Shown: piece by piece, positions 1 to 22,352 of the stretch
How the letters are laid out: each line of letters opens with the position of its first letter
How positions within the stretch are numbered: the stretch's first letter is position 1
Source of the DNA: Gracilaria domingensis
Lineage: Eukaryota; Rhodophyta; Florideophyceae; Gracilariales; Gracilariaceae
Reading direction: 5' to 3'
NCBI GenBank assembly: GCA_022539475.1
Contig: VCMS01000418.1
Coordinates: forward strand, 23,855 to 46,206
Length of the DNA stretch: 22,352 nucleotides
Program-made: the position numbers and the translations under genes
The notes under the pieces: model-generated
The model's database searches: none
What the model saw: only the letters and a program-made list of their open reading frames with translations
What the model was told of the DNA's origin: nothing

Positions 1-1
1 G

Positions 2-6728: not shown

Positions 6729-7611
6729 GCAATGCGCTGGAAACGACACGACCCACCCAGGGGTACACACCGCTGTGGATAACGTAACCCCGTCGGGAAC
6801 ACCACAACTGAGTGAGGTCACCACCCGCAGAGCGGAGAAGACAGTATCTGTAGACCCGGGCTTTCCGGGAACGCAGAACCGCAAGCGGTAGATCAGCTCA
6901 ATGTTACCGACCGGTGTTAACCACGCCGTGGTATGAGGAAACGAGAAGTCGTACTTACCCGCGTATTATTTGGGAAAACAACCTTGGAAAGGTGAAGTAC
7001 GAAGTACGAGTTTGGAAACCGTCGATGGTGCACCCACGCCGCGTGGCAGAGGCCTCATGACACACCCAAGTGGAGAGTAACACGTTGTGTGACGTGGTGA
7101 CGTATGGAAAGCACCGCCGACGCGGGGAACTGCTGACAGTAAGTCGCGTGCGCGAGTACCACACGTGCACGGTGCACGATGTACGGTCGCCAACCGTAGG
7201 CGAACGGACACCTGTTAGGGTAACTCGTGGCTCACACGTGCCACCGCCGGCCAACCAGAAGGCCGCGATATGCACCGTGATTGGTCAATCCGCCTCCATG
7301 GCGCACGAGCGAGACCCTGCCCGTTCTCCGTCGCACGGACGATCCTTCTGGATAGCAAGAGGGAGCTCAGAATCCCGAAGCTACCGTTGGACGGTCGGAA
7401 GCTCAACCAAAACGAGCCGAAGCTCGTCAGACTCAAGAAGGAGAGTACTTCAAGAAGAACCTTTCAGGTTGAAGATTGGACGCTCCTGGCGTAAGTTGTA
7501 GTTGTCGCGCAGCGAGGAACTCCTAGTGAGTCGTGACTGGTTAAGTCCAAGAGGAACCTCTCTAGAGGTTAGCCGGCCACCACCCGCCACCCTCGAAGGT
7601 ACGAAACCACA
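6729..7611 (+). other. GC-rich spacer between integrase and chromodomain of element A
   Basis: No frame here carries a recognisable domain. Two overlapping frames (7070-7501 and 7270-7494) give basic Ser/Arg-rich products that look like frame shadows. In element B the corresponding stretch is a continuous Pro/Gln/Thr-rich linker joining integrase to the chromodomain, so this may be the same linker broken by indels. A GTAAGT at 7491-7496 resembles a 5' splice site but no partner is convincing. Confidence 0.4.
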
Positions 7612-7869
7612 ATGGGTGAAGGAGAGCAGTCAAACACCGAGGTGTACCCGCAGGAATACGTGATCGAACGTATCGTACGTCATGTTGTAGACCCCGATGG
7701 GACGGTACTGTACCAAGTGCGATGGTATGGCTACTCCGCCGAGGAGGACACCATGGAGCCGGTCGGGCACCTACCTAGGTCGAAGATCGTTTCATACCAC
7801 CGTCGCACTCATCAGCCTTGCCGTCCAACCTGGACCAAGCCCAGGTGGGATAAGAACCGTTCCCGGTGA
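7612..7869 (+). CDS. Chromodomain ORF of element A
   Basis: This 85-residue ORF starts at ATG 7612. Residues about 16-65 match a chromodomain: EYVIERIV, then VRWYGY, then DTMEPVGHLP and an SYHRR helix end. Chromodomains at the integrase C-terminus bind methylated histone H3 and steer integration into heterochromatin. The third cage aromatic, W in the usual TWEP, is M here and also in element B. Here the domain is not in frame with integrase (stop at 6726-6728), so it is either a remnant of the Gag-Pol C-terminus or separately expressed. The former is more likely. Confidence 0.8.
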   Translation: MGEGEQSNTEVYPQEYVIERIVRHVVDPDGTVLYQVRWYGYSAEEDTMEPVGHLPRSKIVSYHRRTHQPCRPTWTKPRWDKNRSR

Positions 7870-8221
7870 GGAGCTTTCAACTATACCGCGATGCGGAAGA
7901 CTCAGAATGGAGAGTTGACCCCTCCTGTGTGGGGATGAATGAAGGAAGAAGACCAATGAAGCGGTGAAGACCGAACTAGAGGAAGTGAGAAGAAAGAAAG
8001 AAGAGCATACCGAAATGCCGGTTGTACCGATTTAAAACGGTTAGAGTAGAAGAAGCACCAAAGAAGTGAAGTACACTTGAACACAGTGTGAGTGAAGAAG
8101 TAATCGAAGATCGATCAAGTTCGTGGAGAACAGGCAAAAGGGTGAAGGGAAAGTTACCACTAGATGGTTTTACTGTTTCTATCTTATACTAAGGACCAAG
8201 TCCCCAGCCCTGCTGGTCATC
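7870..8221. other. Intergenic stretch between convergent genes of element A
   Basis: It lies between the chromodomain stop and the stop of the reverse-strand gene. It is strongly A/G-rich on the + strand (about 7935-8110, many GAAG/AAGAA units). I see no coding region, no clear AATAAA for the reverse gene and no repeat. Confidence 0.5.
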
Positions 8222-10075
8222 TTACACCCCCGATGAGGGACCGGCACCGCCGCTACCGGAGGGACCCTGCGAAGGGTGCGGAACGGCGTAAGCCAGTATC
8301 CCTGCCATAGTGGTGAGATGATCGGGCACGATAATTCCAGCGTTCTGGAGACTGGCGCGCAACATCGCGATGTTCGCCGGAGAATCTCCCGGAGCGACCG
8401 GAGCTGTCGGGGCCGGAAGAACCGAAGGAACGGTAGCCGCTACAGGGGCCGGACCCACCACCGGAACACTCGCTTGAGTCGGAACATTCCAACCCACAGG
8501 AGCCTGGGGTACCCCGCCGCTGGCGTGCAACACCTGATTCGCCGCCGGTAGGTCGTTCACCAATTCCTGGTCCATCTCGACGAGTGCTCCAGCCGCCTCT
8601 CCACCAGTATCCATGTTCGGATCATCCAGATCTACTGGGGCGACCCAGTTGTCACTGAACATGAACCCAACGGGGTGACCGTCTGGAATCGACCGTGGCT
8701 GGTTCGCTGCCCACTCGGCATACGCGCTAGTCGGCATCGTACCCTCCCATGGGTCGTAATACACGAAATCTCCTGCTGTGGGATGTCTCCTACCGGGTGA
8801 GCGGTCGTAGTGACGACGAGGACCTTTCCCGCGTTGCGAACGGGGCACCGTTTCCCAATCGACTCCATCGATAACATCCAAGATGTAATGGATCTCATCC
8901 ACGTTCTCTTCGGACCCCAAGGGAGTGTGCAAATCCAGCGAGCGGATAATGCTGCGAAGCATCGGCGGAATATACCAAACACGGTAGTTGTCGTAAGCCT
9001 CCCAGAGGAGAAACGCTGCTACGCGTGCCGCCCACTCGCCGGCTACGAGACCCCACCATCCTGAACGCGGATCGCTGATCAATCGGGAGCCGATGTAACT
9101 CAAGCACGGAGGCAGTTCTGCAAAACACCCTTTGGGTACCTCCACATCACGCCACCAATCTGGTAGAGGAGGGAACCGTCCAACAAAGGCCTGCGGTCTG
9201 TACCTCTCGGTCTCGATATTCGGGTACGGAATCAGATACCCATGACGGGAACGAGCTTTCCGCTCAAACCGAATGCGGTTGACGAACCCACCCTGGGAAG
9301 CGTTCTTGCGAAGATAACGGAACTCCGCTCGGAGTATGGGCCGATTCCAGCACAACATCAACCTCGATGTGGTCGGGCCATCGCCGGCGTACCGCGCATG
9401 GTCGAACGTCGCCAAGTTGTCTCCATATCGGACTTCACCGAAAGTACGGTAGAACGGAGTATCGAACCCATATGACGGTGGAACCAGGTGCTCGAGGTGC
9501 ACTCGACTGAGTCTCTTGTACGCCAACTTCGCGTGTTCCGCGCGCGCGGTGTTCAGGTTCTCACCCTCGCGGGTATCGTACCGGAGGAGCATCGGGTCGA
9601 TCGCTATACGAACTTTCCATTCTGGGGATTGCACTACCGCTAACGGCAGACCGCCCGGTAGGAAGCCGTTTTCGGCATACGACTCCAGGAGAGTGTCATC
9701 GTTAACAGCTACCGGATGAAACCACGGTGCACGGCTGAACGCAAACCCATCACGGAGTGGATCGCGTACTGCGAGAGATTCCTTCGATATCCAACCAGCT
9801 TGGTTCGCCATCAGCGGCATCGCTTGCGCTGAATTCCATAACGGAACGTTCACCGGGACCATCGGTTGAGACTGAGGCAGTGGAGCCGTCGCAGAACCCG
9901 GCTGAGGGTAGTTCGACGCGCTCGCCTGACCCGTCGGGTGATGAGGAAACTGATTCGGGTTCATCGGAATGACAGATGATGTACTGTGATCGAGTTCGGA
10001 TACTTGAATACTCTGTTCGCTTGAGTGTGTATCGCGCTTGCGAGGTATAGAAACCGAGGAGTTGGTACCGCTCAT
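8222..10075 (-). CDS. Antisense accessory gene of element A, unknown function
   Basis: This is an uninterrupted 617-residue ORF starting at ATG 10075, 80 nt inside the 3' LTR and reading away from it, opposite to gag-pol. The frame stays open 12 codons upstream but without an ATG. The N-terminal 100 residues are Ser/Pro/Gln-rich. The core (about 100-450) has many aromatics: WW at 307-308, LPPCLSYIGS near 321-330 and GEWAARVAAFLLWEA at 346-360. The C-terminus is Pro/Ala/Gly-rich, ending in GGAGPSSGV. The core aligns with the antisense protein of element B (WW 390-391, then PPVLAYFGS and SEWAVMVAILALQAS with near-equal spacing), so both descend from one gene. No catalytic motif, membrane segment or known fold is recognisable. 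Conservation in two diverged elements argues for a function in the element's life cycle; a regulatory role is a hypothesis. Confidence 0.85.
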   Translation of the reverse strand: MSGTNSSVSIPRKRDTHSSEQSIQVSELDHSTSSVIPMNPNQFPHHPTGQASASNYPQPGSATAPLPQSQPMVPVNVPLWNSAQAMPLMANQAGWISKESLAVRDPLRDGFAFSRAPWFHPVAVNDDTLLESYAENGFLPGGLPLAVVQSPEWKVRIAIDPMLLRYDTREGENLNTARAEHAKLAYKRLSRVHLEHLVPPSYGFDTPFYRTFGEVRYGDNLATFDHARYAGDGPTTSRLMLCWNRPILRAEFRYLRKNASQGGFVNRIRFERKARSRHGYLIPYPNIETERYRPQAFVGRFPPLPDWWRDVEVPKGCFAELPPCLSYIGSRLISDPRSGWWGLVAGEWAARVAAFLLWEAYDNYRVWYIPPMLRSIIRSLDLHTPLGSEENVDEIHYILDVIDGVDWETVPRSQRGKGPRRHYDRSPGRRHPTAGDFVYYDPWEGTMPTSAYAEWAANQPRSIPDGHPVGFMFSDNWVAPVDLDDPNMDTGGEAAGALVEMDQELVNDLPAANQVLHASGGVPQAPVGWNVPTQASVPVVGPAPVAATVPSVLPAPTAPVAPGDSPANIAMLRASLQNAGIIVPDHLTTMAGILAYAVPHPSQGPSGSGGAGPSSGV

Positions 10076-10139
10076 GATTGTGACGTATTTACGTACTTGC
10101 GTTTCGCACAAAACTTCAGCCTCGAAGTCGTTCTCGGCT

Positions 10140-10154
10140 CTAAGGAGGGGGAGA
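10140..10154 (+). other. 3' polypurine tract of element A
   Basis: CTAAGGAGGGGGAGA lies immediately before the TG that opens the LTR at 10155. This is the standard place for the plus-strand DNA primer. The first 14 nt are repeated exactly at 3443 and 6574. Confidence 0.85.
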
Positions 10155-10576
10155 TGTAGAGCAACGCATTTTGCGTGGTTATCAGGATGATACGCCTCAT
10201 ATACTCAGGGGAGTGATACGAGGATGCACTGGAAGAGTTATGAGTTGGACCCAATTTTGGCGGTTACTTTTGGAATGGCTTTCCCACAGTTACCTGTAAT
10301 CAGGGTTGCCATTGCTGGCCAATACCGCTAGGTGGACGCGTGTACTACACCACCGTGTGTGTGCATATTACGGGACAATAGGTAGTGCACCTGAGGTGCC
10401 TGAAACTGGGCTAGCCACGTGTACGGACCCCTGCGGGTGTGCACCACGTGTACATAGTTAGTTTAGACCTACTTAGGTGAGCTCGACCTCGTCGTCGCGA
10501 GCACCTTTGTAAAGTCAACCCGAGCACTTCTAAGTGAACTCTTTGTCGAATAGCGCTCTCCTGAGTGGACTCTACA
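10155..10576 (+). repeat. 3' LTR of element A
   Basis: The 422-bp segment starts TGTAGA and ends TCTACA, a perfect 6-bp terminal inverted repeat with TG...CA ends, directly after the polypurine tract. It holds two CACGTG boxes but none of the CCANTTGG motif so common in element B. Its partner LTR is outside the window, so the boundaries rest on the terminal inverted repeat and the tract. Confidence 0.82.
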
Positions 10577-10585
10577 CGAGTGAGG

Positions 10586-10590
10586 CTCTG
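10586..10590. repeat. Target-site duplication of element B, left copy
   Basis: CTCTG lies directly left of the left LTR and recurs directly right of the right LTR (21961-21965). Five bp is the usual duplication for Ty3/gypsy integrases. Confidence 0.93.
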
Positions 10591-10800
10591 TGTGGTATAG
10601 CCGATCGGTGCGAGCTGCTAGTGGGGAGCCCTGCGTGGGCTCGACCCGGCGGAGGAGTGAAACACGTGACACCTAATAGGTCGGCAGCACCCACCGTTGC
10701 CTATAGTGCACGGTGACCAAGTGGTAAATACGCCTGCACTGGTGTGCGGCCGGCACGTATAACCCTCGAGGTCAGCAAAACTATTAGAGGACTACTAGAC

Positions 10801-10880
10801 TTACCAATTGGTGACTGTAGAACCGAACTGGTGTCAAATTAGCCTAGTTGGTGCTTGACTTTACCATTTGGTGTGGGAGG
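10801..10880 (+). promoter_or_regulatory. 20-bp-period array of four TTGGTG-type sites in the left LTR
   Basis: TGGTG occurs at 10809, 10829, 10849 and 10869, exactly 20 bp apart, in contexts ACCAATTGGTG, ACCGAACTGGTG, GCCTAGTTGGTG and ACCATTTGGTG. The sequence between them is not repeated, so only the site is kept. Two helical turns of spacing suggests several protein molecules binding one DNA face. The same array is at 21603-21682. Confidence 0.75.
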
Positions 10881-11105
10881 TTGGCGTCTCGGGGGTCTAG
10901 TACACCCGAGCGCCCCTCCGGCTCTCACGGGCCTAGTGCCACGTGGGCCACCGGGAGGTGCGTTTGTGGTGCATCACCCCGGCCACATATCTACACTACC
11001 TAGTAAATATTAATTCTAAATTAACGAGAATAAACTAATTAGTCTTGTCCAAGCCTGCGCTTGCGCGTCCCACGTGGTACAGGAGGCACACGTGCCCGGG
11101 AGCCC

Positions 11106-11123
11106 GTGACGTCACCACTTGGT
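11106..11123. promoter_or_regulatory. CRE-type palindrome touching a CCACTTGGT site, left LTR
   Basis: GTGACGTCAC (11106-11115) is a perfect ATF/CREB-type bZIP site and shares its last base with CCACTTGGT (11115-11123). The same pair is in the right LTR at 21904-21921. It is probably an enhancer element of the LTR promoter; the binding protein is unknown. Confidence 0.45.
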
Positions 11124-11162
11124 CTTGTAGAGCCCCCGTTGATCTGGCCGAGCTATACTACA

Positions 11163-11819
11163 GACCCCCCTCCTACCGACAGGCACGCCCCGTGGCTGCG
11201 AAGTTCCCACGGCGGTTGCCGCCTTTTCGCCAAACGGTCGTTGGCGCGCGTCGCCTGGCGCACAACACGTCTCGCAATGACGCGGAGACGGCGCGGTGCA
11301 CGGCGCGGCTCGCCACATGCCCTGCAGCGCCATTACCCACGCCGCCGTACCCCCTGTGGTAGGTACGACCGTACCTTGCATCCCTCGTGGTATTGGAACG
11401 CGAAACCGCGAACCGCGACCATTCAGGTTGATCTTGTCGCGCGCCTGGTACCACGTGGTTGTCTTCGCCTCTTCGGTCCCTCCCGGAGGAGTCCGCCACT
11501 CCATCTTCCCCTGTCCGTCCTCCCCCTGGGCGGGTTAGTCCCGGCTTACCAGTCGGTTTCGAGCTTCCCGTCGGTGGGGTTCGTAGTTGTCGACCGATCG
11601 GCACCCGGCCCCCTCGTGGTGGTTGTGACTTCTCGTGTTCCCGAAACTCGTGCAGCCTGCGCACCAATCTGGTCATTTTCACGGTGTGTCAGCTCACTCG
11701 AGCGTGCGAGTTCTCCGTGACCCCTCAGGTCTCATCTGTCATCCAAGTGGTGGTGTTCCCCTTTCCAATTGGTGTCCTCCGTGGCGCGCTCTCGCTCCAT
11801 TCCGCTCCTTTCATACCCC
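11163..11819 (+). promoter_or_regulatory. Upstream region and leader of the antisense gene of element B
   Basis: These 657 bp lie between the LTR and the antisense ATG. The first half is GC-rich; 11460-11535 is C/T-rich on the + strand, as often seen upstream of fungal genes. CCAAGTGGTGGTG (11743) and CCAATTGGTG (11765) lie 22 bp apart within 80 bp of the ATG. Overlapping open frames on both strands (for example 11061-11720) look like products of high GC content; none has a recognisable domain. Confidence 0.5.
11165..11174 (-). other. 3' polypurine tract of element B
   Basis: On the - strand AGGAGGGGGG followed by TC lies directly before the LTR end TGTAGTATAG. This is the plus-strand primer position and fixes the left LTR as the 3' LTR of a - strand element. 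Confidence 0.85.
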
Positions 11820-14546
11820 ATGGGTGAACGACCAGCCTCCCCAACGGGGTGGTCAATGACGTTCGAACGCCGTGAAGACGAAACTGAAGAGACTACCGCT
11901 CCCTCTCCTTCCAATATGGTAGATCACGGGGACGAAGCAGCGCCGCTTCAGTCGAGTTACCACACGGTTGAACCTTCGCAGCTCTATCTGCCCTGCCAGG
12001 CCGGTACACCCGTGTCCATTCCATCGGGCGCCGAGGCCCCCGTGGTGGCCAACCAATTGGTACTGGATGAGCCGCACTACGACCCTATAAAGGGATATTC
12101 CGCTTCTGAAGTTTCCCCCTCATCGGAAGCCACCCGCTCGGTTCGCGAAACCGCTGTCGCCCGGTCGAGGATGTCCGGCAAAACCCCTGGGGTGGCGCGC
12201 GGCCGTGGCGGTGGCATCTTCAAACCCAACACGCGGTCGAGTACACGCGCTCGTCAAGATCCGTACGGTCGCGGTGGGTATGATCCTTATGCGGCCGCCG
12301 CCGGTCCGAGCAGCGTCAACCCTCTTGCGGTCGCTGGTACGGTGGAAGCTCAACAGCTGAATCCTCATGACCTTAACAGGACGCACGGGCAGCCGCATGC
12401 CCACTATGGTGCGCGATTTGCTGATGTCTCTACCGAGTTGGTCGCTCTGGGGAACTGGCCTTTCCACATCAGTTCCTCCTTCTGCCCCTTGCGGTTTCGC
12501 CACATGAGTCTGCAGCAGTATACTACGATTGCCCGTTGGGATTGTCGCCGCTTGGAGGCGGTGCCTATGGCGCCTCCTCCACCACGCAAGGGCGAGAAGC
12601 AGAGCCGGTTCGGTCGACAACAGTGTTTCCATGCGCGGCAGCGGCACACGAAGTTCCTGTACTATATCCCCGTGGCCATACCGTCGGATCTCCCCTTCAT
12701 CCGCTGCGATGGGGAGATCCACTACTTTCGCCGTTTGGTCGATATCCTTCACCGCTTGGACGAACCTGCTACCCATATCGAGGTCGATCTGGATTACGTC
12801 GCGTTCGAGCGCCCTTTAGATACCAACTATTGGACCGACCGTGGGAGGTGGGCGACCGATGCGATGGCTGAGAGCCGTGTTCGTCACCGTAACAACCGTA
12901 CGAGGACCATGTTCCTGTTCCACAACGTTGAGTATTGGTCGCAGAGCGACCAGAACCGCCGGGCATGGTATGTCAATCGACCCTCTTGGTGGGACCACTA
13001 TGAAGTATGCCAGTGGCTGGAAGTGCCGACCCCGCCGGTCCTTGCGTACTTTGGTAGTAGCATCTCCCTCGATAGGAACAACGCATATGCCGTTTGGTCG
13101 GTCGCGCGCAGCGAGTGGGCCGTCATGGTGGCTATCCTCGCCCTTCAGGCTTCCGTGGAAGGTGTGACTTGGGACACGCGTTGCCCTGACAAGTCTGTCG
13201 GGATCAGCGGAACTCAACCAGTTGGTCGTATCTTCAACATTCCCAACGATGTGGTCGGCGACATTCGTGCCATGGGGCTCTCCAACATCGTGGAGGGCAC
13301 CAAATATACTGCGCAGCAGTTGGATGGTTACCTCACTGCGGTAAGTAACCACAATTGGGGGCCTGAACAGGGTTGGGATGTCTACGACCCGGAGGTTCAT
13401 AGCATCGTGCCTCTCCAACAGCAGCACATGGCTGGCGAAGACCCATTTGGTAATGACGATACCGTGATGGTGGCTGCCGAGAACTATGAGTCCCCCGCAT
13501 TGCCTCCGTCGGCACCTGTACAGGCTACTCCTCCGACCAGCGTGGCTGCGCCTGTTCCAAGTGGTCCGGCGAACCCTCAGGCGGCTGCTCACCCTCCCGG
13601 ACGGGCTGCCCAGGGGCCTCTTCGGGTTGGTTTCCAGTCGCTTCCGGTGAATCCGGTGCCCCCTGGTGGTGATAGTGGCGCGATACGGAGCGCTCTGGCT
13701 CGTCTCAACCACGCCTCGATGGTGCATTTCAACCGTCCTAGTCCAAATGACATCCTCACCGCTGTAGATACTCTTACCAACTTGCTCCCCGTGGTTGCTC
13801 ACCACGAGCGGCGCACTTCTGAACTGCGACAGTTCCGCGACTACTTCCAGCGCAATCTCTACCGTGAGGTGACAGCCTATGTTGGTCAGTTGAGCAACCT
13901 TGTGGAAGGCCACGCGCCGTTACATCGACCCCCGGTGGAAAGTTTCAACCCGTACGCTCCTGCGTCACAGCAACCTGCGACCCCAATGGTAGGCTTTGGT
14001 GGCCTTGGTACGTATCAACTCCCTGGTGGACCTCCTGGTGGTGATTCTTCGGCACCTTTCCATACTCCGCTTGGTCCTCACAACGTTCCTCTTCCTCCAG
14101 CAAGTACTGGGACAGGAGCACCAAGTGGTTTCTCAACTGGTTTCCGTTCGGCTCCGCTTCCGCCGACGTCCGGTGCTCCTAGGCCGCCTACTCGTCTGAC
14201 CCCCGGTGCAGGGCCGTCTAGTGGTCTTGCTCCTCCGACCTCTGGTGGCATCCCTCCGTCTAGCTTACCGCCTTCCTTCCATCCACCCACTGGTCCTGCG
14301 AATACCATGCCGGTAGTCAGCAGCGGTACCCCTGCGGGACCTGCTGGTACTTCTGCTCCCTTACCAAGTGGTGGTGCGCCACCGAGCGCGGCTAGCGGCG
14401 GGAGCGGAAGCTCCGCCGGACCTATGTCGGTGTCCTCTGGTCGTGGAGGTTCCGCTTCATCTCGCGGGACCTCCCGTGGACGTGGTCGCGGTCGTGGAAC
14501 CAGTCGTGGACGCGGACGTGGCCGTGGGTCCTCCAAGGCCTCCTAA
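11820..14546 (+). CDS. Antisense accessory gene of element B, unknown function, RG-rich tail
   Basis: This is an uninterrupted 908-residue ORF from ATG 11820 (context CCCCATGGG; the frame is open 17 codons further without an ATG). Order: acidic, disordered N-terminus (1-100), a basic patch with VARGRGGG and RGGYDPY (about 125-160), an aromatic-rich core (about 195-560), a long Pro/Gly/Ser/Ala-rich region (about 580-870) and a tail of RG repeats (RGRGRGRG twice). The core is related to the antisense protein of element A: WWDHYEV at 390, PPVLAYFGSS near 405, SEWAVMVAILALQAS at 431-445. RG-rich tails usually bind nucleic acid. It is convergent with pol, with 152 bp between the stop codons and an AATAAA just past its end. 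No known family is recognised. A DNA- or chromatin-binding regulator of the element is my leading guess; an env-like or RNA-binding role is possible. Confidence 0.88.
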   Translation: MGERPASPTGWSMTFERREDETEETTAPSPSNMVDHGDEAAPLQSSYHTVEPSQLYLPCQAGTPVSIPSGAEAPVVANQLVLDEPHYDPIKGYSASEVSPSSEATRSVRETAVARSRMSGKTPGVARGRGGGIFKPNTRSSTRARQDPYGRGGYDPYAAAAGPSSVNPLAVAGTVEAQQLNPHDLNRTHGQPHAHYGARFADVSTELVALGNWPFHISSSFCPLRFRHMSLQQYTTIARWDCRRLEAVPMAPPPPRKGEKQSRFGRQQCFHARQRHTKFLYYIPVAIPSDLPFIRCDGEIHYFRRLVDILHRLDEPATHIEVDLDYVAFERPLDTNYWTDRGRWATDAMAESRVRHRNNRTRTMFLFHNVEYWSQSDQNRRAWYVNRPSWWDHYEVCQWLEVPTPPVLAYFGSSISLDRNNAYAVWSVARSEWAVMVAILALQASVEGVTWDTRCPDKSVGISGTQPVGRIFNIPNDVVGDIRAMGLSNIVEGTKYTAQQLDGYLTAVSNHNWGPEQGWDVYDPEVHSIVPLQQQHMAGEDPFGNDDTVMVAAENYESPALPPSAPVQATPPTSVAAPVPSGPANPQAAAHPPGRAAQGPLRVGFQSLPVNPVPPGGDSGAIRSALARLNHASMVHFNRPSPNDILTAVDTLTNLLPVVAHHERRTSELRQFRDYFQRNLYREVTAYVGQLSNLVEGHAPLHRPPVESFNPYAPASQQPATPMVGFGGLGTYQLPGGPPGGDSSAPFHTPLGPHNVPLPPASTGTGAPSGFSTGFRSAPLPPTSGAPRPPTRLTPGAGPSSGLAPPTSGGIPPSSLPPSFHPPTGPANTMPVVSSGTPAGPAGTSAPLPSGGAPPSAASGGSGSSAGPMSVSSGRGGSASSRGTSRGRGRGRGTSRGRGRGRGSSKAS
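14440..14543 (+). repeat. Low-complexity repeat encoding the RG-rich tail
   Basis: Units of CGTGGACGTGGTCGCGG type repeat imperfectly, encoding SRGRGRGRG twice. The short unit suggests expansion by slippage. The antisense protein of element A lacks such a tail. Confidence 0.7.
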
Positions 14547-14584
14547 GTCACCTCGTGGTTCCCTCTCGTGGATTCTTCTCGACT

Positions 14585-14590
14585 AATAAA
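14585..14590 (+). terminator. Poly(A) signal AATAAA of the antisense gene of element B
   Basis: AATAAA lies 38 nt past the TAA, followed by a GT/T-rich stretch (TCTTTTGTTTTCCTGTT near 14614-14630). This is the usual layout of a cleavage/polyadenylation site and supports real transcription of the + strand gene. Confidence 0.6.
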
Positions 14591-14684
14591 GTGTCTTGCA
14601 TTGTGATCTCTGATCTTCTTTTGTTTTCCTGTTAGGTTAGTTAGTTAGCTTTTCGTGTAGCGTGGCGTTCAACGGCTTCGATAA

Positions 14685-14702
14685 CCCCCCCCCCTTCCTT
14701 AG
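14685..14702 (-). other. Internal polypurine tract at the pol stop (element B)
   Basis: On the - strand CTAAGGAAG runs into a run of ten G in all, overlapping the pol stop codon (TAA at 14699-14701). The same sequence with eight G is at 18098-18113. It may be an additional plus-strand primer, or mark where the polypurine tract stood before the antisense module was gained. Confidence 0.45.
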
Positions 14703-16290
14703 CGACGCGTACCACGCGAAGCAATACCAGTTGGTGGGGGCGTTCGCCCTTGTTTGCGCCAGTATCGGATGATGAAGTTGTTAGGGATATGACCAGGTGG
14801 TTCCATAGAGTCGTACTCGGGCGACCATCCATACCATCTTACCCGGTAGCGCATACCCTTTGTGGTGTGTTCGTGACCTACAATGGTGTCAATAGCGCAC
14901 TCCTGAGTGTCTACTTGAGGGTGTGACTCTTCCATTTGGTCATGGGGTGCGTGGCTCCCCGTGGGTGGTGTGACCCGTTGGTCTTGCCGAGGGTCGATCT
15001 CCTGTGCCGTTTGGGTCGTGGGGTCAGCCGTTACGGCTCTGGTGGAAGGTTGACCGCTCGGCTGACTCATCATAGGAGGGTGTATGGGAGACGTTTGCTC
15101 CCTCTCCGCTTCCTGCTGCGTTGGCTCACCTATTGGTTGTGCATTCGCTGTCGTCGGTTGTGCGGCCTTGACAATCCTGTCGATGGAGACCGTGTTCTCC
15201 AAACCTTCCATTATGACCGTAGCGGTATGCTCGTCGGAGCGAATCACCTTGTATGGTCCCGTGGACTTGGGTAGTAGTTTAGAATTGATATCCTCCTCAA
15301 GGCGGATGTCCTCTTCCATCTCCGCTGGGGTTGGACGCTTACCTTTTGGTGGCACGTCGAGGAAGACCATGTCTCCTGCTACCACTTTGGTCACTTTGCT
15401 CACCGTTCGGTCATAGTCCGCTTTATACCGTTCTTGGGCTGCTGTCATCTTAACTTTGGCAGCAGCCAAAGCGGCGCGTAACTTCTGGAGTATGTCTCTC
15501 TTGACCTTCGCCGGTGTGAGTGTCCCGGCCGCTTCCGAGCGGTCAGGTCCGGGCTGGACGATAATACCATGTGGTGTTCGCGAAAGTACCAGGTCGAATG
15601 GGGTTGTTTGAGTGACCCTGTGGACCTGGAGGTTGTACGCATATGTCAATGGTTGGACATACTCCGACCATGTGGTTTGGTGCTCTTCGACATAGTGCCG
15701 TAGGCGTGCCACTAGGGTCTTATTGAAGCGTTCCACTTGGCCGTTTGTTTGCGGATGATAGGCCGTGGTAAAGTAGTGCTTGACCCCTAGCATTGTACAA
15801 ACCGCCTCGAAGAACTTAGAAGCTAGGTTCGAACCGTTATCGGTCAGTAGGTACATGGGAGCACCGTACGGGTAGACCCAATTCTCCAGGAAGGCTGTTG
15901 CTAGTGTCGTTGCCGTTTGGTTCTTCAGGGGTATGGCTCTGGTGAGCTTTGTGAACCTGTCGGTTATGACTACCACAAAGCGATAACCCTCTGAGGTCTT
16001 GGGCAGGGGCCCCAGTATGTCGATTGCTACGAATTCCAGGGGCCCCGCCGCCGGGAATAGCTTCAGGTACTTCCTGTGCTTCGCCACACCACCTCGGGTC
16101 TTAATGCACGAATTGCATTGCGCCACATAGGTATATACATCGTTAGCCATATGCGGCCAGTAGAATTGCCTCCGAAGGGTATAGTACAACCGCGTGGCTC
16201 CAGGGTGCCCCGAGAGCCGTGGATTGTGTGACAGATATAACACCCTTTGTCTTAATGACTCAGGTACGACTTCTGGGAGCTCCGTCTAAA
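14699..16290 (-). CDS. pol: pol of element B: integrase with C-terminal chromodomain
   Basis: The frame is open from about 16290; it has no obvious ATG and continues the upstream pieces after a one-base shift. Counting from codon 16243, the zinc finger is H6, H13, C43, C46 and the catalytic triad D75, D135, E171 with the canonical 35-residue gap. TGPYKV of the GPY/F module is near residue 328. A Pro/Thr/Gln-rich linker leads to a chromodomain at about 448-497 (VRWYGW, DSMEPPGHIP, RYWRK), with M where the third cage W is expected. The protein inserts element cDNA; the chromodomain likely guides it to particular chromatin. The stop overlaps a polypurine tract. Confidence 0.94.
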
Positions 16291-16613
16291 GGTGAGCGTC
16301 TGATGAGGTACCCATTGTGGTCGACGTCGAAATGAGAATCCTTCCTTCCAAGTACGTCAGCGAGCGTTTTGCACAACCTATCGGTCGATTGTTCGCGTAA
16401 GAATTCCTCACGGGTGATTGGAGCGTGTTCCCCTTCCTCCACAGGAAGGAGGGTCTCCACTACCACTTGGTACGTACTGTCATCATGCCAATATCCCTTC
16501 AGAACTTCATTGACCTCGTGGTTAGCTAGTTCTATAGTAAAGCATGGGATGTCGTCGTCCACTGGGTCAGTGTCCAATCCTTCGGTATTCAACCGGGACA
16601 ATGCATCCGCCAC
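16260..16613 (-). pseudogene. pol: pol of element B: end of RNase H and connection to integrase
   Basis: It begins in the RNase H C-terminal ADALSRL motif (catalytic D) and continues through an acidic connection domain to GYLIRR, equal to GYLVRL in element A. It is out of frame with the preceding RNase H piece by one missing base in a G run near 16625, and with integrase by a shift near 16285. Both are needed to make a continuous polyprotein. Confidence 0.85.
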
Positions 16614-16858
16614 TCGGTGCTTGACCCCGGGCGGTACTGCACATCGTACTCAAACTCCGAGAGTCTCAGACGCCATCGGGCCAGACGACCCGATGCGTCC
16701 GCCAAGCCTAATATCCACCTCAAGGAGTCGTGATCCGTTCGGAGCGTGAAGCGCACACCATATAGGTAAGGACGTAGCATCAGCATGCTCCAAACAACCG
16801 CTAGGCATTCCTTCTCCGTTACGGTGTAGTTCTGCTCCGCTTGGTTAAGAGCTCTACT
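16589..16858 (-). pseudogene. pol: pol of element B: RNase H middle part after a stop codon
   Basis: Directly after the stop at 16859-16861 the same frame continues with SRALNQAEQNYTVTEKE, then RTDHDSLRWIL, both RNase H signatures with the catalytic E and D. It runs out of frame after YRPGS. The stop is TGA where element A has TGG (IGYWSR), a single G-to-A change on the coding strand. Confidence 0.87.
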
Positions 16859-17416
16859 TCAATACCCAATTGGTGCGAGCTTGCCGTCCTCCTGTTCCTG
16901 CATTAGGCAGCAACCTATTTGGGCGTCCGACGCATCCGTGTCCAGTGTATACGGGAGTCCCGTTTTGGGCAATGCCAGTACCGGTGGGGAGAGAAGCGCT
17001 GCTTTCAATGTATAGAACGCCTCTACCTCGTCCTCTTCCAGGTGGTCAAAGTGTGTGGGCTGCCCCTTCTGCAACCTCCGGTTCAGGGGTGCGGCTATCT
17101 TTGCAAAACCCTTGATGAACCGCCGGTAGACGTTGCATAGACCTATAAAGGATCGTATGTCCGTTTGCGACGTAGGGAGCTTCGCTTCCTGTACCGCTCG
17201 GATATTCCGTTTGGTCACTTCGAGTTTCCCGGGGCTTATTGTATGCCCTAGGTACTCTACCTCTTGGTTGAAGAACATACACTTTCGTAGTTTGAGGGTC
17301 ACGCCTGCCTCTTGTAGCAACTGCAGTACCACTTGGACGTGCGAGAAGTGCTCCTCTATGGACCTCGAGTAGATGACTACGTCATCTATGTATACCAATG
17401 CGGTTGTCCACTTCAC
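16859..17416 (-). pseudogene. pol: pol of element B: RT catalytic/thumb part and start of RNase H
   Basis: It begins with KWTTALVYIDDVVIYS, the YIDD catalytic box at 17381-17392, then the RT thumb (SFIGLCNVYRRF) and the first RNase H motif (LDTDASDAQIGCC). It ends at an in-frame TGA. It is separated from the upstream RT piece by a one-base deletion near 17415; element A is intact at this point. Confidence 0.9.
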
Positions 17417-18180
17417 TTAGACAGTATGATGTCTAACGCCCTTTGGAAGGTAGCGGGGGCGTTTCTTAAACCAAACGGCATGCGTAAGAAGCGATACAGG
17501 CCTGCGTGGCATGTAAACGCAGTCTTATCACGGTCACCCTCTGGTATTTCGATCTGCCAATACCCGCAGTTGGCGTCCAGTGTGGTAAAGATGTTCGCAT
17601 CTCCTAGGGAGTCGATGCATTCATCCATCCTCGGGATGGGGTACGAGTCCCTTACCGTTACGGCATTAAGTTTTCTGTAGTCAATACAGAACCTCATACG
17701 GGTCTCTCCTCGTTTTTGGACTAGCACTACAGGGCTAGCCCATTCCGAGTTTGCCGGTTCTATAACCCCCTCGCGGAGCATCCGCTCTACCTCCTCCAGC
17801 TCTACCTCACGGGCCTTATGTCCCGCGCGGTATGGCTGTTGGTGGATGGGACGGGAGTCCGGTTTGAGGTCAATCCTGTGCTGGGTGGCCTTAATGGCTC
17901 CCAGCTTACCCGACCACATGGTACTGAATGGCTCCAGGAGTCCAAGGATCCGAGCTCTGAGCTCTTCCCCTTCAAGTCCTATATTCACCTCCGTCTTCCA
18001 ATTGGTCACTGGGTCGAGCTCCAGTTTCTGGTCTTCTCGCTCAGCTAGTCGCTGCACCATATGGTCTGTTCGCGACGAATTCAACGAATTGACACTGCCC
18101 CCCCCTTCCTTAGCATCCACGACCTCGTGGGACCATTGTGGTATAATGTAAAGATCGTACGGGGAGCCGGTAAGGCAAGA
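17413..18180 (-). pseudogene. pol: pol of element B: RT fingers and palm, N-terminal part
   Basis: It contains YRAGHKARE, MRFCIDYRKLN, LDANCGYWQ and PFGLRNAPATFQRALDIIL, the standard RT blocks up to just before YIDD. The frame is open upstream to about 18180, where DLYIIPQWSHEVVDAKEG gives the linker from protease (element A has DAKEG at the same place). It differs in frame from the protease ORF by one missing base between about 18130 and 18190. Confidence 0.9.
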
Positions 18181-21100
18181 CCAATTACGGTGTGTTTTGG
18201 CAACTTGACCGGGCGGTTGCTGAAGTTACTCAGGTAGACCTGAAACGGTTTTGTCGGTATGTTGTCGACTATACCATTCGCCATTAAGGTCATGTGTCGT
18301 TCGGCCAACCGTGAATGGTTCTGAATGGATAACAGGCCAGGTTGTTGGCATGTGACCTTCACTACCAAGTGGTTCATAGGCGGTATTGTTACCGCCTTTG
18401 CCAATCGCACCTTGTTGGAGAGTGTGTTTTCCGGGACCGGTTGGTGTTGAGTGCGGTTCTCTTTCGTAGAGGCACCCTTGTGGTTACCAATAATGGCGAT
18501 CCGGGGGCCATTATGGAACAGAACTGTCTTAGAACGTGGAAAAATTGCCCTGACATGCTGGTCTATAAAAGTTGTTCCAAGGATACAGTCTGTTGCCAGT
18601 TGGTTAACGACTATGAAGCGAACTCGGACCCTCATGGTGTCAATCAATACCATTATGGTAAGCGCTCCCATGACGGTTAGTGGTCTGTTGTTGGCGTCAA
18701 CCAGTGGGTTAGTTAATGTACATGGCTGAAGCTTATTAAGTTGTCTGTTAGTTAATAGTTTGGCATTCACCAGATTAGGTCCTGCCCCGGTGTCCAGGAC
18801 AGTGACGCATGGTACCAAGTGGTTAGAAGTAAACCCGAGGGTGACGTTTACCTTATAGTTACTATGCTTGAGAAAGCATATCGGTTCGGTGCCGTCCATG
18901 AGGCTCTCCTCCCCTGTAACCAATGGGTAATTGTCCATACTTGCACCACTTGGTTCTGGAAGGCCTTCCGTCTTCGGACAGTTGGGGAAGGCCTCTATCC
19001 CAACTGTTCGGCGTTTTCCGCCTGCGGGGCGGGATCCGTTTGGTCCTGCTCCGTGACGAGGTGTACCTGATGAGGTGTGGCTGCATTGGGTCGCGCATTT
19101 GCGTGTCCCGTGCCTGCGCTCCGTGCCGGGGGCCCAAATATATCCTGGTGGTTCTGCTGGCGAGCAGTCAGGAGAGCGTTCCTGTTCTGCGGAGCCACAC
19201 TTGGGCACGCTGTTGCCAAGTGGTGGGGCGACAAACAGAACCAACAGAGGAGATTGCCGGTTGTGGGGTCCTTCATGCGAGCGACGACGCGCGCGATGGG
19301 GACGGCCTCCAGTAGGTACTGCACTCCGTTGCTGCGGGTATGGTCCTTGTTCACCATATTGCTTGAATGGTACCGCTAGGACCGGGCTGACCGGTACGGA
19401 TACCTGTGATGGTGGAGCTGAGGTTTGTCTTGAGGGTGGCTCGCTGGATAGCGAGCTGGACCAAGAGGTATTACCGTGCGATCGAGTTGTCGGTTGTGCA
19501 TGCACCAAGTGGACTGGGTGACCCTGGGAGGCGTATTGTGTGGACGCCTCCCCCGTAGTGGTCTCCTCTTCCTCTACGTCAAACACTGACCGCCTGGTCT
19601 TTCCTTTCTCCTTCGATGGTTTGCCGAGTGGTGCGGAGTCTTTCCTGGCCCCTGACCGAACGGTGTCGCCTAGTCCCTGTGCATGGCGGGCTAGTGCGTT
19701 GTAGTCGACCGTGCGGTTGGTAGCTACGTAGTTACGAACCTGTGATCGGATAGACTTCGCCACGTTGTCGGCGTACATCGATTTCAACCTTTTGGTAGTA
19801 AAGACGCTTCCACAGCGGGAGGCTAATGCCCATAAGGAGCGAGCGAATTCCAATTCGGTTTGTCCCGCGCGCTGGCGGTACGCAAGCACCTCTGCGTACG
19901 CCTCCTGGATTACCTCATCGGTCGCGTAGGTTTCCAGTAGGAAGTTAACCACCTGTGGGTATGTTGTCAACATTTCCGTTTGGTCTTCGTCCACCGCCAT
20001 GGTGTTCCCTTGGAGGCGGCTGTGGAGCAACGCTCCAGCCTGACCAGTTAGGTAAAATTGAAACAGCCACATGGCTGCTGCCTCTGAAAACCCATTCTGA
20101 TCACAAGCGATCTTGAACCTTTGAAGGAAATCAATGATCGCAATAGGGTCATCCCCGCTAAAGCGAGTTTCACCCAGTTGGAAACGAAGCTTCCTATGAT
20201 GCTTCGTTATCTTCTGAGCTACCTCTTTGGTATACTCAGCCTGTCTGTTCTCTAACCTATAGGTACGATAGTCGACCGCTTTGGTGAATAAATCATTGAG
20301 CGGCGTAAGCACCTCTAGGTCAGTCTCCTCGTCGGAAGTTGAGTCCGAATCGTTATACCTTTTGGTCTTACCCTTGCGGGGATTCTTTCCTTTCTTCTTG
20401 CGAGAGTCCTTCCTCTTGCGTCGTGAACCTGTACGGTCGTCGTCTCCTGACGAATCCGAATCGGTGTCTGAGGACGAAGAGTCCGAGTCCGACCGGCGAC
20501 TCTTTCTCTTTCCCCTTTTGGTTTTCTTCTTCTTACCATTTGGTTTACGTCGACGCTCGTCTCCTGAGCTCGACGAATCTCCATCAGGGTCTCCACCACT
20601 TGGTCCTGACGGAGCTACACCAGTAGGTTGGGGGAGGTAAACGTACCTCGGGCCCTCCATCCCTGGAGGCTCTGCCCCTTTCCCCATACGGTCGATAAAT
20701 CCTTCACCAGTCGGTTGTGTAGGAAGGTTAGGGTGGAGAATACCAAGTGGTTTGGTGGCGTCTACTGCAGGCGGGGGAGCTTGCTTCATGAGCGCGGCCT
20801 GGGCCACCATCTCAGGTTGAAGCTTAGCCCCCTGCTGCTGCAGAGCCAGCATAACCAATCGGTCGATGTGTCCTCGCACCTCGTTTTCGAGGTACTGTAA
20901 CACCACCACAGGTACCTTGTCGAGGACCTCCTGGGAGGCTCGATCAACTACCACTCGGGTGACCTCGTCCAAGTCCAGTCGCGGTCCGACTGGCACCTCC
21001 ATTTGGTCTACCACTGGGGTTGTTACAGGAGCGGGCTCCGCCCTTGCGGAGCCTGCTCCTCCGTCCACTTGGTCAGCCCGGGGAAGGGTCGAGGGGCCCC

Positions 21101-21260
21101 CAGCCTCTCGGTCTACCTTCTTCCCCCTCGGTGGGCGTTCCTTCCGAATCAGGTCCTCCGGGTTATCCAACACCGGATAGGACACTGAACCCCGTATGGG
21201 GTGACCACTTGGTGGAGCGCTCGGCGCCCTATTTGGGTAGCGCGCGCCCCGTTTCTCCAT
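18081..21260 (-). CDS. gag: gag and protease of element B fused in one long frame
   Basis: The ORF has 1059 codons from ATG 21260, 132 nt after the LTR. Gag part: Pro/Gly-rich N-terminus, a predicted helical segment (VLQYLENEVRGHIDRLVMLALQ), a long Ser/Asp-rich and Lys/Arg-rich tract (about 230-330), then the capsid domain (RTYRLENRQ, FSGDDPIAIIDFLQRF, FYLTGQAGALLHSR). The protease has DTGAG at about 18780-18794 and ILGTTF downstream. The zinc knuckle that should lie between is in another frame (18995-19381). A one-base shift near 19340-19382 thus makes gag read directly into pol and skip the nucleocapsid. The ancestral arrangement was probably gag ending at 18995 and protease entered by -1 frameshift. 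The last residues before 18081 are also out of frame. Confidence 0.88.
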   Translation of the reverse strand: MEKRGARYPNRAPSAPPSGHPIRGSVSYPVLDNPEDLIRKERPPRGKKVDREAGGPSTLPRADQVDGGAGSARAEPAPVTTPVVDQMEVPVGPRLDLDEVTRVVVDRASQEVLDKVPVVVLQYLENEVRGHIDRLVMLALQQQGAKLQPEMVAQAALMKQAPPPAVDATKPLGILHPNLPTQPTGEGFIDRMGKGAEPPGMEGPRYVYLPQPTGVAPSGPSGGDPDGDSSSSGDERRRKPNGKKKKTKRGKRKSRRSDSDSSSSDTDSDSSGDDDRTGSRRKRKDSRKKKGKNPRKGKTKRYNDSDSTSDEETDLEVLTPLNDLFTKAVDYRTYRLENRQAEYTKEVAQKITKHHRKLRFQLGETRFSGDDPIAIIDFLQRFKIACDQNGFSEAAAMWLFQFYLTGQAGALLHSRLQGNTMAVDEDQTEMLTTYPQVVNFLLETYATDEVIQEAYAEVLAYRQRAGQTELEFARSLWALASRCGSVFTTKRLKSMYADNVAKSIRSQVRNYVATNRTVDYNALARHAQGLGDTVRSGARKDSAPLGKPSKEKGKTRRSVFDVEEEETTTGEASTQYASQGHPVHLVHAQPTTRSHGNTSWSSSLSSEPPSRQTSAPPSQVSVPVSPVLAVPFKQYGEQGPYPQQRSAVPTGGRPHRARRRSHEGPHNRQSPLLVLFVAPPLGNSVPKCGSAEQERSPDCSPAEPPGYIWAPGTERRHGTRKCATQCSHTSSGTPRHGAGPNGSRPAGGKRRTVGIEAFPNCPKTEGLPEPSGASMDNYPLVTGEESLMDGTEPICFLKHSNYKVNVTLGFTSNHLVPCVTVLDTGAGPNLVNAKLLTNRQLNKLQPCTLTNPLVDANNRPLTVMGALTIMVLIDTMRVRVRFIVVNQLATDCILGTTFIDQHVRAIFPRSKTVLFHNGPRIAIIGNHKGASTKENRTQHQPVPENTLSNKVRLAKAVTIPPMNHLVVKVTCQQPGLLSIQNHSRLAERHMTLMANGIVDNIPTKPFQVYLSNFSNRPVKLPKHTVIGLALPAPRTIFTLYHNGPTRSWMLRKGGAVSIR
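18098..18113 (-). other. Internal polypurine tract in protease-RT linker (element B)
   Basis: On the - strand CTAAGGAAGGGGGGGG lies at the same protein position (AKEGGG) as the tract at 3443 in element A, and again matches the tract at the pol stop of B. It is a candidate central polypurine tract. Confidence 0.5.
18979..19019 (-). promoter_or_regulatory. -1 programmed frameshift signal at the gag/pol junction of element B
   Basis: On the - strand GGAAAAC (19019-19013) is in register G|GAA|AAC with the nucleocapsid frame, followed by a 6-nt spacer and a perfect 8-bp stem CAGTTGGG/CCCAACTG (19006-18999 with 18986-18979) around a 12-nt loop that holds the gag stop codon. A -1 slip enters exactly the protease frame. 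G GAA AAC is the slippery site reported for visna/maedi virus; spacer and stem are in the usual range. Confidence 0.7.
18995..19381 (-). pseudogene. gag: Nucleocapsid part of gag of element B, zinc knuckle in shifted frame
   Basis: This frame is open from a TAG near 19382 to a TAG at 18995-18997. It encodes CWFCLSPHHLATAC (19205-19246), a CCHC knuckle with the C-x2-C-x4-H-x4-C spacing seen in element A, followed by a Gln/Ala/Pro-rich tail. The frame is +1 relative to the capsid frame, so capsid and knuckle are separated by an indel here. The end of this frame holds the slippery site and stem-loop described next. Confidence 0.85.
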
Positions 21261-21392
21261 TTAGGTAACTGGCGTCGGAGCCAATTGCTTCGGCAACGGG
21301 AACCAAACCACTCGGGTATCTCGTGACTTCCAAATCCTCTCTTCCCAAAACCACTTGGTAATCCACAAATTCTAGGTCGGGAGACCAAAATA
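21261..21392 (-). other. 5' leader and primer-binding site of element B
   Basis: This is the short region between the 5' LTR and the gag ATG. TGGTCTCCCGACC on the - strand (21387-21375) starts 5 nt from the LTR and begins with TGG, complementary to a tRNA 3' CCA end, so it is the likely minus-strand primer site. I did not assign the tRNA. A CCACTTGG site lies at 21351-21358. Confidence 0.7.
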
Positions 21393-21960
21393 TGTGGTAT
21401 AGCCGATCGGTGCGAGCTGCTAGTGGGGAGCCCTGCGTGGGCTCGACCCGGCGGAGGAGTGAAACACGTGACACCTAATAGGTCGGCAGCACCCACCGTT
21501 GCCTATAGTGCACGGTGACCAAGTGGTAAATACGCCTGCACTGGTGTGCGGCAGGCACGTATAACCCTCGAGGTCAGCAAAACTATTAGAGGACTACTAG
21601 ACTTACCAATTGGTGACTGTAGAACCGAACTGGTGTCAAATTAGCCTAGTTGGTGCTTGACTTTACCATTTGGTGTGGGAGGTTGGCGTCTCGGGGGTTT
21701 AGTACACCCGAGCGCCCCTCCGGCTCTCACGGGCCTAGTGCCACGTGGGCCACCGGGAGGTGCGTTTGTGGTGCATCACCCCGGCCACATATCTACACTA
21801 CCTAGTAAATATTAATTCTAAATTAAGAGAATAAACTAATTAGTCTGTCCAAGCCTACGCTTGCGCGTCCCACGTGGTACAGAGCACACGTGCCCGGGAG
21901 CCCGTGACGTCACCACTTGGTCTTGTAGAGCCCCCGTTGATCTGGCCGAGCTATACTACA
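21393..21960 (-). repeat. 5' LTR of element B (right copy)
   Basis: This 568-bp copy is nearly identical to 10591-11162: three substitutions and three small gaps, all missing from this copy (4 nt in total). As the 5' LTR it should hold the promoter for gag-pol on the - strand. It carries the four motif sites, the 20-bp array (21603-21682), the CRE palindrome (21904-21913) and an AT-rich block near 21807-21842. Confidence 0.95.
21603..21682 (+). promoter_or_regulatory. 20-bp-period array of four TTGGTG-type sites in the right LTR
   Basis: TGGTG occurs at 21611, 21631, 21651 and 21671, the same array as in the left LTR. It lies in the 5' LTR, where it can act on the gag-pol promoter. Confidence 0.75.
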
Positions 21961-21965
21961 CTCTG
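21961..21965. repeat. Target-site duplication of element B, right copy
   Basis: CTCTG pairs with 10586-10590. Its last two bases are the start of the TGG of the interrupted primer-binding site. Confidence 0.93.
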
Positions 21966-21975
21966 GCGCCAACCG
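21964..21975 (+). other. Primer-binding site of element C
   Basis: TGGCGCCAACCG begins with TGG and has the look of a tRNA 3'-end complement. It is followed by a leader stem-loop like the one at the start of element A. Element B is inserted at its first two bases, so the left flank 10577-10590 is the other side of the same site. Confidence 0.6.
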
Positions 21976-22352
21976 CCTACGTGGGTTATCACTCTCGCGA
22001 GTATAGCCACGTCTGGTTACGGTGGTCCTACCCTCTCGGTACCTTTAAGGAACATCTGTCGTTGATGTCGGGACCTGAGGGTCGTACCGAGGAGGTATAG
22101 GACTAGATTACGAAGTGATCCGACTCTGTATAGAGTTTTGCCGTGTTTACGGAAACCCGTGCATTACCGTTGGAGGATCTCGCCTCGCTCCGGGCACAGT
22201 GCCGAGGAGGCCCTACCCGTCGCGTGTGGGTGTTGTTTGGTTGTTGTTTTCTGTTGCTTTCCCTCTCGGGACTACACCTGTCGTTGGTCGTGTTTCATCG
22301 TTGCCGATACCACCCCATCTCTGGAGTTTCTTATCGTTTCCTCACCCACGTG
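21966..22352 (+). mobile_element. Leader of a third LTR element (C), cut by the window end
   Basis: A stem-loop at 21979-22012 pairs ACGTGG with CCACGT and TTAT with ATAG, with an inner ACTC/GAGT stem and the palindrome CTCGCGAG. After it the sequence diverges from the leader of element A, so C is a different family member. No coding region is visible before the window ends; the last 120 bases are G/T- then C/T-rich. Either C shares the 10155-10576 LTR in a tandem arrangement or element A inserted next to it. Confidence 0.6.

Follow-up and report, generated by a model that had tools for sequence, protein, structure and literature searches.

VANDALs are Mutator-like DNA transposons. In the available excerpts of the reports on them, VANC21 binds the motif YAGTATTAY, which is dense in VANDAL21 and rare in other elements, and the targets of VANC6 carry a different motif (PMC5735166, PMC10398659). 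The motifs of VANC21 lie, in the same excerpts, chiefly in non-coding DNA, in one orientation and often as tandem repeats (PMC5735166). Retrotransposons with long terminal repeats (LTRs) offer other points of comparison: as excerpted, the plant Retand elements have antisense open reading frames (ORFs) with a TRP28 domain (PF04195) between pol and the 3' LTR (PMC11963269), and the oomycete Ty3/Gypsy element Chronos (also Archon) combines a chromodomain at the 3' end of pol with a dual RNase H (PMC5348765). Here, we analysed a stretch of 22,352 nucleotides from the red alga Gracilaria domingensis (assembly GCA_022539475.1, contig VCMS01000418.1, positions 23,855 to 46,206 of the forward strand), called the window below. 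It holds a Gypsy LTR retrotransposon, element B (10591-21960), along which an inverted pair of 3-bp half-sites is scattered, and which has a gene antisense to gag-pol (aORF). Other Gypsy families of the same genome, denoted by letters, have their own versions of the pair. This feature is almost certainly real, family-specific and, in the B family and in the pair of families C and H, retained beyond matched controls.

Results

A dispersed inverted pair in element B

A previous sequence-only reading of this DNA had listed 36 sites of CCANTTGG in element B. All of them exist, and an additional one at 18596 gives 37 distinct sites between 10591 and 21960.

10717, 10804, 10864, 11115, 11743, 11765, 12053, 13218, 13443, 13557, 14121, 14364, 14727, 14932, 15733, 16463, 16866, 17329, 17998; no strand assigned; CCANTTGG cores, first half (all cores together span 10717-21920)
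18365, 18596, 18815, 18946, 19216, 19505, 20174, 20536, 20596, 20743, 20999, 21065, 21205, 21351, 21519, 21606, 21666, 21913; no strand assigned; CCANTTGG cores, second half

The four sites reported for 1-10590 are in fact five, the one at 4001 having been overlooked. The near-matches were found again, CCGTTTGGT at all six positions given for it and CCTTTTGGT at 15342, 19788, 20358 and 20514. Shuffled sequences, named in that reading as a possible refutation, do not give similar counts: over 300 dinucleotide shuffles of B, CCANTTGG occurred 1.75 times on average and 6 times at most. With a single LTR counted, 33 sites stand against a shuffle mean of 1.44 (maximum 7), and the whole window contains 50 strand-matches against 3.18 in shuffles.

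We counted the inverted pairs of every 3-mer at gaps of 0-16, the expectation being taken from the element's own ACC and GGT counts. ACC-Nn-GGT was present in B 7 times at N3, 65 at N4, 38 at N5, 20 at N6 and 7 at N7, each against 8.2 expected. CCANTTGG is merely the strongest form of this broader pair, ACC-N4..6-GGT, which totals 123 sites in B, about one per 92 bp. The letters beyond the half-sites are weak, save for an inner A at N4 (60% in B, 58% in family E), and ACC/GGT is the top over-represented trinucleotide in A, B and E. Across the 77.9-Mb assembly, ACCACTTGGT was found 1688 times and the reversed pattern 139 times. No tandem repeat was found in element B.

The cores are spread over both LTRs, the 3' untranslated region (UTR), the aORF, the integrase (INT), the reverse transcriptase (RT)/RNase H, the gag-protease frame (gag-PR) and the leader. 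These features are as follows (aa, amino acids).

10591-21960; no strand assigned; element B, Gypsy LTR retrotransposon with the dispersed label (LTR pair, target duplication, Pfam)
10591-11162; minus; LTR, 3' end in the sense of gag-pol, with 8 ACC-N4..6-GGT sites and 4 CCANTTGG cores
11721-14546; plus; aORF of element B, stop-to-stop frame of 941 aa, antisense to gag-pol, no Pfam match
14699-16285; minus; integrase with C-terminal chromodomain (Pfam PF17921, PF00665, PF00385)
16859-18225; minus; RT/RNase H, split here in two frames (Pfam PF00078, PF17919, PF17917)
18081-21260; minus; gag-protease frame of 1059 aa, with a weak protease match in Pfam (E 0.0012, under its cut-off)
21393-21960; minus; LTR, 5' end in the sense of gag-pol, with 8 ACC-N4..6-GGT sites and 4 CCANTTGG cores

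Element B is assigned to Ty3/Gypsy by its LTRs, its RT-RNase H-integrase order and a 5-bp target duplication, CTCTG, which flanks it at 10586-10590 and 21961-21965; RT, RNase H, integrase and chromodomain all have Pfam matches. The aORF sits between pol and the 3' LTR, gag-pol being on the minus strand. In the window copy pol (14699-18225) is broken over several frames, and other copies of B keep integrase frames of up to about 1550 codons.

Arrangement, codon use and spacing

The signal belongs to one arrangement of the half-sites. In five whole elements scanned at gaps of 0-40, everted and direct orders reached a z score of 3.3 at most (C, direct, N3), whereas the inverted peaks had 11-21, and no inverted gap apart from these peaks stood out. 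Synonymous-codon shuffles, which keep the protein and the codon counts, were made 1000 times for each of 14 coding segments of families A-E. In 9 of the 14 the observed count lay above all shuffles; for the remaining five, the shuffles that attained it numbered, per 1000, 4 (B RT1), 16 (B RT2), 30 (A gag), 2 (D aORF) and 1 (D INT). For ACC-N4..6-GGT in B, the aORF, INT and gag-PR were matched by 0 of 1000 shuffles, with 44 sites against 10.3 in gag-PR and 20 against 5.6 in INT, and the sites of these three segments occupy all three frames; the aORF of C has 22 sites against 7.0. That codon use does not explain the sites had been asserted for the strict motif. This holds in the aORF (6 CCANTTGG sites, shuffle maximum 4) and in gag-PR (13, maximum 7), and does not in INT (3, maximum 4), RT1 (1, maximum 3) and RT2 (2, maximum 2), where shuffles were not exceeded. 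Taken with the dinucleotide shuffles, these results rule out codon use or composition as the cause.

In B, C and E the pair is not confined to genes but occurs also in LTRs or other non-coding DNA, and its density there is equal or higher, at 14 per kb in the B LTR and 15 per kb in the region between pol and the LTR of E (34 sites against 4.8). The mean distance between pairs is 70-154 bp in A, B, C and E and, in pieces of D, 96-123 bp. They are spaced more evenly than random in 5 of 6 stretches (P<0.05; coefficient of variation 0.63-0.85 over the six against about 0.97), and no helical phasing of adjacent sites at 10.5 bp was seen.

An integration-site preference was considered and rejected: the 15 bases on each side of the B, C and D insertions hold no ACC...GGT or CCG...CGG pair. 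The D insertion flank holds the opposite order, CGG...CCG. As to self-targeting, only 5 of 30 B loci have a usable flank, and two of these five, including the window copy, lie within copies of A.

Family-specific versions in other elements

Further Gypsy families were reached through at least 150 Pfam integrase matches in the same genome, from which representatives were chosen. The sequence-only reading had proposed motif discovery in related families. Enrichment is present there, in versions that differ between families and exceed shuffles. Over whole elements, C has 48 CCG-N4-CGG and 41 at N3 (7.5 expected), D has 49 CCG-N2-CGG and 27 at N3 (10.3 expected), and E has 65 ACC-N5-GGT and 42 at N4 (7.5 expected). 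Element A, which adjoins B, carries ACC-N6-GGT 34 times against 6.25 expected (1-10590 plus 21966-22352), with N5 and N7-N9 also raised. The top z scores of the five elements (A without its left end) are 11.1-21.0, compared with shuffle maxima of 5.2-6.5 in 20 shuffles each.

1-10590; plus; element A, Gypsy, gag-pol on the plus strand; its left end lies outside the window, and it is assumed that it may resume at 21966
8222-10111; minus; aORF of element A, 629 aa, a distant homologue of the B aORF (BLASTP)

RT, RNase H and integrase of element A have Pfam matches; its pol has one RNase H region, and no chromodomain was found there by Pfam. Its aORF shares 22% identity with that of B over 270 aa (E 2e-9, BLASTP, a single comparison). 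Element B was inserted adjoining A, and the sequence past 21965 may be the remainder of A, which we assume.

For six more aORF-bearing loci (F to K; 5.1 kb and 30 shuffles each), one dominant inverted pair per locus was predicted before the sequences were fetched. Four loci were above all their shuffles, namely F (CCG-N2, 26 against 4.1), G (CCG-N2, 12 against 1.2), H (CCG-N4, 24 against 3.1) and J (CCA-N1-TGG, 16 against 2.7), and K was marginal (CCA-N1-TGG, 13 against 2.5; z 6.6, shuffle maximum 6.5). The label classes are ACC-N6 in A, ACC-N4 in B, ACC-N5/4 in E, CCG-N4/3 in C and H, CCG-N2 in D, F and G, and CCA-N1-TGG in J and K, with I weak. In D (L034, L042, L043) CGTACG is also in excess, 33 against 8.9; since this accompanies CCG-N2-CGG, the D label may be wider, such as CCGTACGG. 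Eleven of the 12 CCG-N2-CGG sites of locus G come before position 3000, and the remainder, with an ORF for a DDE transposase, holds one. That 405-aa DDE_1 frame (L051:3694-4911; PF03184, E 6e-17) stands beside the aORF, is nearly free of the label and may be an inserted DNA transposon. In locus F, no integrase is found up to 1.7 kb from the aORF, and a Ser/Asp-rich frame on the aORF strand (L050:4069-4518) looks Gag-like by eye; for these two reasons the locus may have a different architecture.

Control sequences behave differently. Neither the flanks (16.9 kb of host DNA; largest 7 against 3) nor four distant Gypsy elements (L046-L049, 4.6 kb each; largest 5 against 1) have a comparable ACC or CCG peak; CC-N7-GG is raised in the host flanks, 81 against 53. 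A wider scan placed L048 and L049 above their own shuffles and L047 near them. The strongest false peak is GTA-N4-TAC in L048, of which 9 of 11 sites fall in 2193-2298, in a GTAC-rich simple repeat beside a distant Gypsy integrase. CGC-N5-GCG in L049 has 11 of 13 sites in 2272-2586, and all 13 sites of CGC-N10-GCG in L047 are in 1949-2434, many spacers being raised in both. These peaks were rejected as dispersed labels because most of their sites are clustered within 110-500 bp.

Retention of the sites

Retention of the pairs was compared with that of the same half-sites at gaps of 10-40 in 13 comparisons, most of those in the B family sharing one sequence and hence not being independent. Taken as single comparisons, 8 of the 13 gave p values under 0.05. 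Between B and L024, 52 of 55 sites were kept against 83 of 127 controls (p 9e-6), and the corresponding figures were 33/36 and 56/90 for L029 (p 6e-4), 37/44 and 68/108 for L030 (p 0.0075), 37/47 and 69/110 for L027 (p 0.036), and 52/55 and 106/126 for L005 (p 0.039). The B copy L036 and B2 share 31/41 sites against 53/90 controls (p 0.047). The excess extends to B and E (4/6 against 1/13, p 0.017) and to C and H (28/38 against 34/64, p 0.031). In the integrases of B, E, C and D, which are 50-62% identical, ACC-N4..6 is counted 20, 18, 1 (for C over 253 aa only) and 4 times, and CCG-N2..5 8, 5, 9 and 13 times.

Candidate readers

Homologues of the aORF are present in A, B, C, D, F, G, H, I, J and K, with about 30% identity for B-C and B-D, and the antisense position is seen in all aORF-bearing families except F and G. 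The B-type aORF gave at least 53 matched stretches among 50 scored candidates in the same genome. Its ratio of non-synonymous to synonymous substitution rates (dN/dS) is 0.16-0.28 in five comparisons, and the B aORF is under purifying selection. A search of a protein collection with the B aORF gave no homologue, and a four-family aORF profile found a sole one, P0001 (769 aa, on a 3849-base contig), with 47% identity to D over 69% of P0001. That contig may stem from this alga itself or from a relative. Neither the profile nor the B integrase matched viral contigs.

Mapped on the aORF tree, the five motif classes take 4 changes, the fewest possible, and 0 of 200 shuffles were as low; two classes are single-row, A and B have long branches, and I is grouped with J and K though not significant alone. 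On the integrase tree, E is the sister of B (98/98), and weak support joins A to B and E (76/90) and D to C and H (37/9). C (L031) and H (L052) have integrases identical over 228 aa and aORFs just 53% identical, and are therefore probably a recombinant pair. Family E, with at least 7 copies, is labelled in each of the four that were examined (L032, L037, L056, L057). Its pol-LTR region (2.2 kb) is dense in ACC-N4/5-GGT, is about 80% identical between copies and has a longest ORF of 125 aa (L057).

Discussion

We think that the scattered motif is probably a self-label bound by a dimeric protein encoded by the element, most likely the aORF product, which would work like VANC. Judging from sequence, the dense array of predicted binding sites would mark the DNA of the element as self. 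Because the pair is inverted, with a short and slightly flexible spacer, its reader would be a homodimer on double-stranded DNA, with one subunit per half-site and a spacer set by the geometry of the dimer. Less certainly, this reader would be the product of the aORF, the antisense gene located between pol and the 3' LTR, and would have diverged together with its sites. By binding all along its copies, the aORF protein might keep them unsilenced and permit their transcription, as VANC does for VANDAL. This anti-silencing role is the most likely function that we can propose, and it is a tentative guess by analogy. With labels differing from family to family, the activity of one would not awaken the rest. 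The idea of a self-label came from the sequence-only reading; the family-specific half-sites and spacers, the lack of a comparable peak in host flanks and the retention in the B family speak for it strongly, if indirectly, and its choice of the antisense protein finds a motif class that follows the aORF tree and the integrase tree too.

Several results weigh against this interpretation. With classes taken by half-site, the integrase tree also needs the minimum number of changes (3); since motif class fits it equally well, the aORF is not singled out as the reader. Family E has the label but, in the four copies examined, neither a long ORF nor any tblastn match to an aORF was found 3' of the integrase; moreover, E favours N5 and its sister B favours N4. 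E may ride on the protein of another family, it may have lost its gene, or another protein may read the label. No DNA-binding fold was found in the aORF by Pfam, AlphaFold2 or PDB profiles. Indeed, the aORFs of A and B and P0001 match no Pfam family up to E 10, and those of C and D none up to E 0.1; AlphaFold2 models made from two or three sequences were unusable (predicted local distance difference test scores of 31.3 and 33.5); and UHRF1, the only protein matched by PDB profiles (E 0.012 and 0.11), was taken as a chance match. Locus I (11 against 2.9, z 4.7), which shows the pair of J and K, is not significant alone. Nor does the partial D locus L034 give a significant pair by itself, and the evidence for D comes from the entire element. 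In the 5.1-kb stretches of F and G no integrase was found, so that a Gypsy context and an antisense position of the aORF are putative there. Retention was not above control for E-L056 (24/41 against 29/48), J-I (6/11 against 25/42) and J-K (7/11 against 19/36, p 0.39), was not significant for E-L037 (44/59 against 59/95, p 0.077), and showed no excess for D-L033, whose copies are 99.5% identical.

The label might be read by another protein of the element, the integrase with its chromodomain or Gag, for coating the cDNA, avoiding self-integration or steering insertion, with the aORF as a passenger. We regard this as rather unlikely, even though the half-site classes fit the integrase tree as well as the aORF tree, family E has label and integrase with no aORF in the copies examined, and the even spacing in 5 of 6 stretches would suit a coat. 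Such site specificity is, to our knowledge, not a known trait of Gypsy integrases; no pair in the enriched order lies within 15 bases of the B, C and D insertions, and element A is labelled, yet no chromodomain was found in it. A second possibility, to which we give a small chance, is that host repressors, activators or chromatin factors read the label and that the elements gathered host sites. The motif of E, kept without an aORF in the copies examined, is compatible with this, and so presumably are the resemblance of CCG-N4-CGG to the everted sites of fungal Zn2Cys6 factors and the E-box that we take to be included in ACCANNTGGT. However, the several half-site and spacer classes of this one genome track the phylogeny of the elements, and host reading would thus need a separate factor for each class; no comparable peak is present in host flanks or in the four distant Gypsy elements, and sites for activators would be expected in LTRs, not all through coding DNA.

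Two further explanations were weighed. An action of the motif at the RNA level, where it would form a small hairpin recognised at packaging or translation, is very improbable. Inverted repeats can fold, and a minimum spacer is seen in B, where N3 is at the expected level and N4 far above it; but the stems would have just 3-4 bp, the half-site letters are fixed in each family, which a hairpin would not need, and the asymmetric centre of the B motif has no strong strand preference (7 against 5 in gag-pol, 3 against 3 in LTR/UTR, 0 against 3 in the aORF). There is next to no chance that the signal simply results from base composition, from codon use or from local repeats. Such an origin could account for ACC/GGT being the top trinucleotide in A, B and E, but the everted and direct orders of the same half-sites lack such peaks, synonymous-codon and dinucleotide shuffles fail to give the signal, and the pair is present in non-coding DNA and in an element, B, in which no tandem repeat was found.

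In a broader view, on which we are evenly divided, a superfamily of LTR retrotransposons would have a private address code, with one inverted CC...GG version per family, read by an antisense-encoded dimer of an undescribed fold. The versions would differ in the flanking letter and in the spacer (1 to about 6), the protein and about a hundred sites per element would co-evolve even inside coding sequence, and families in one genome would tell self from non-self, with E, which lacks the aORF, riding on the code or imitating it. If the self-label interpretation is true, a retrotransposon imposes on its own protein-coding sequence a second code, made of some hundred binding sites, and this code has shifted between related families. 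The families would then offer a natural set of specificity pairs between protein and DNA, in which half-site and spacer can be compared with the protein sequence to follow their joint change. It would also hint at what antisense genes located between pol and the 3' LTR, a kind also present in plant Retand, may do, and would mean that self-recognition of the VANC type arose in LTR retrotransposons too. The binding prediction is open to testing in vitro.

Among the matches listed in a search of titles and abstract openings of the openly accessible literature, no dispersed family-specific inverted motif in LTR retrotransposons was found. Element B shares with Chronos, as excerpted, an integrase with a C-terminal chromodomain (PF00385), whereas the pol of element A, unlike that of Chronos, has one RNase H region and no chromodomain found by Pfam; the available part of the Chronos/Archon account has no mention of an antisense ORF or of a dispersed motif (PMC5348765). 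Retand, in the excerpts of its description, is similar to element B in that a gene located between pol and the 3' LTR runs antisense to gag-pol, and differs in that the aORFs of A and B have no match to PF04195. The same excerpts mention no dispersed element-wide motif, and about half of Retand elements carry tandem arrays (PMC11963269); in B no tandem repeat was found. With respect to VANDAL, the comparison drawn by the sequence-only reading holds for the logic and not for the anatomy. Unlike the Mutator-like VANDALs, element B is an LTR retrotransposon with RT, RNase H and integrase; and its sites, in contrast to the VANC21 motifs as excerpted, are inverted half-site pairs with a variable spacer that occupy coding DNA too, with no tandem repeat found in B. 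Nevertheless, within what those excerpts cover, both systems have a short motif that is dense in the element's own copies, rare in other elements and different among related families, and in both an extra gene of the element, beyond transposition functions, is the candidate reader.

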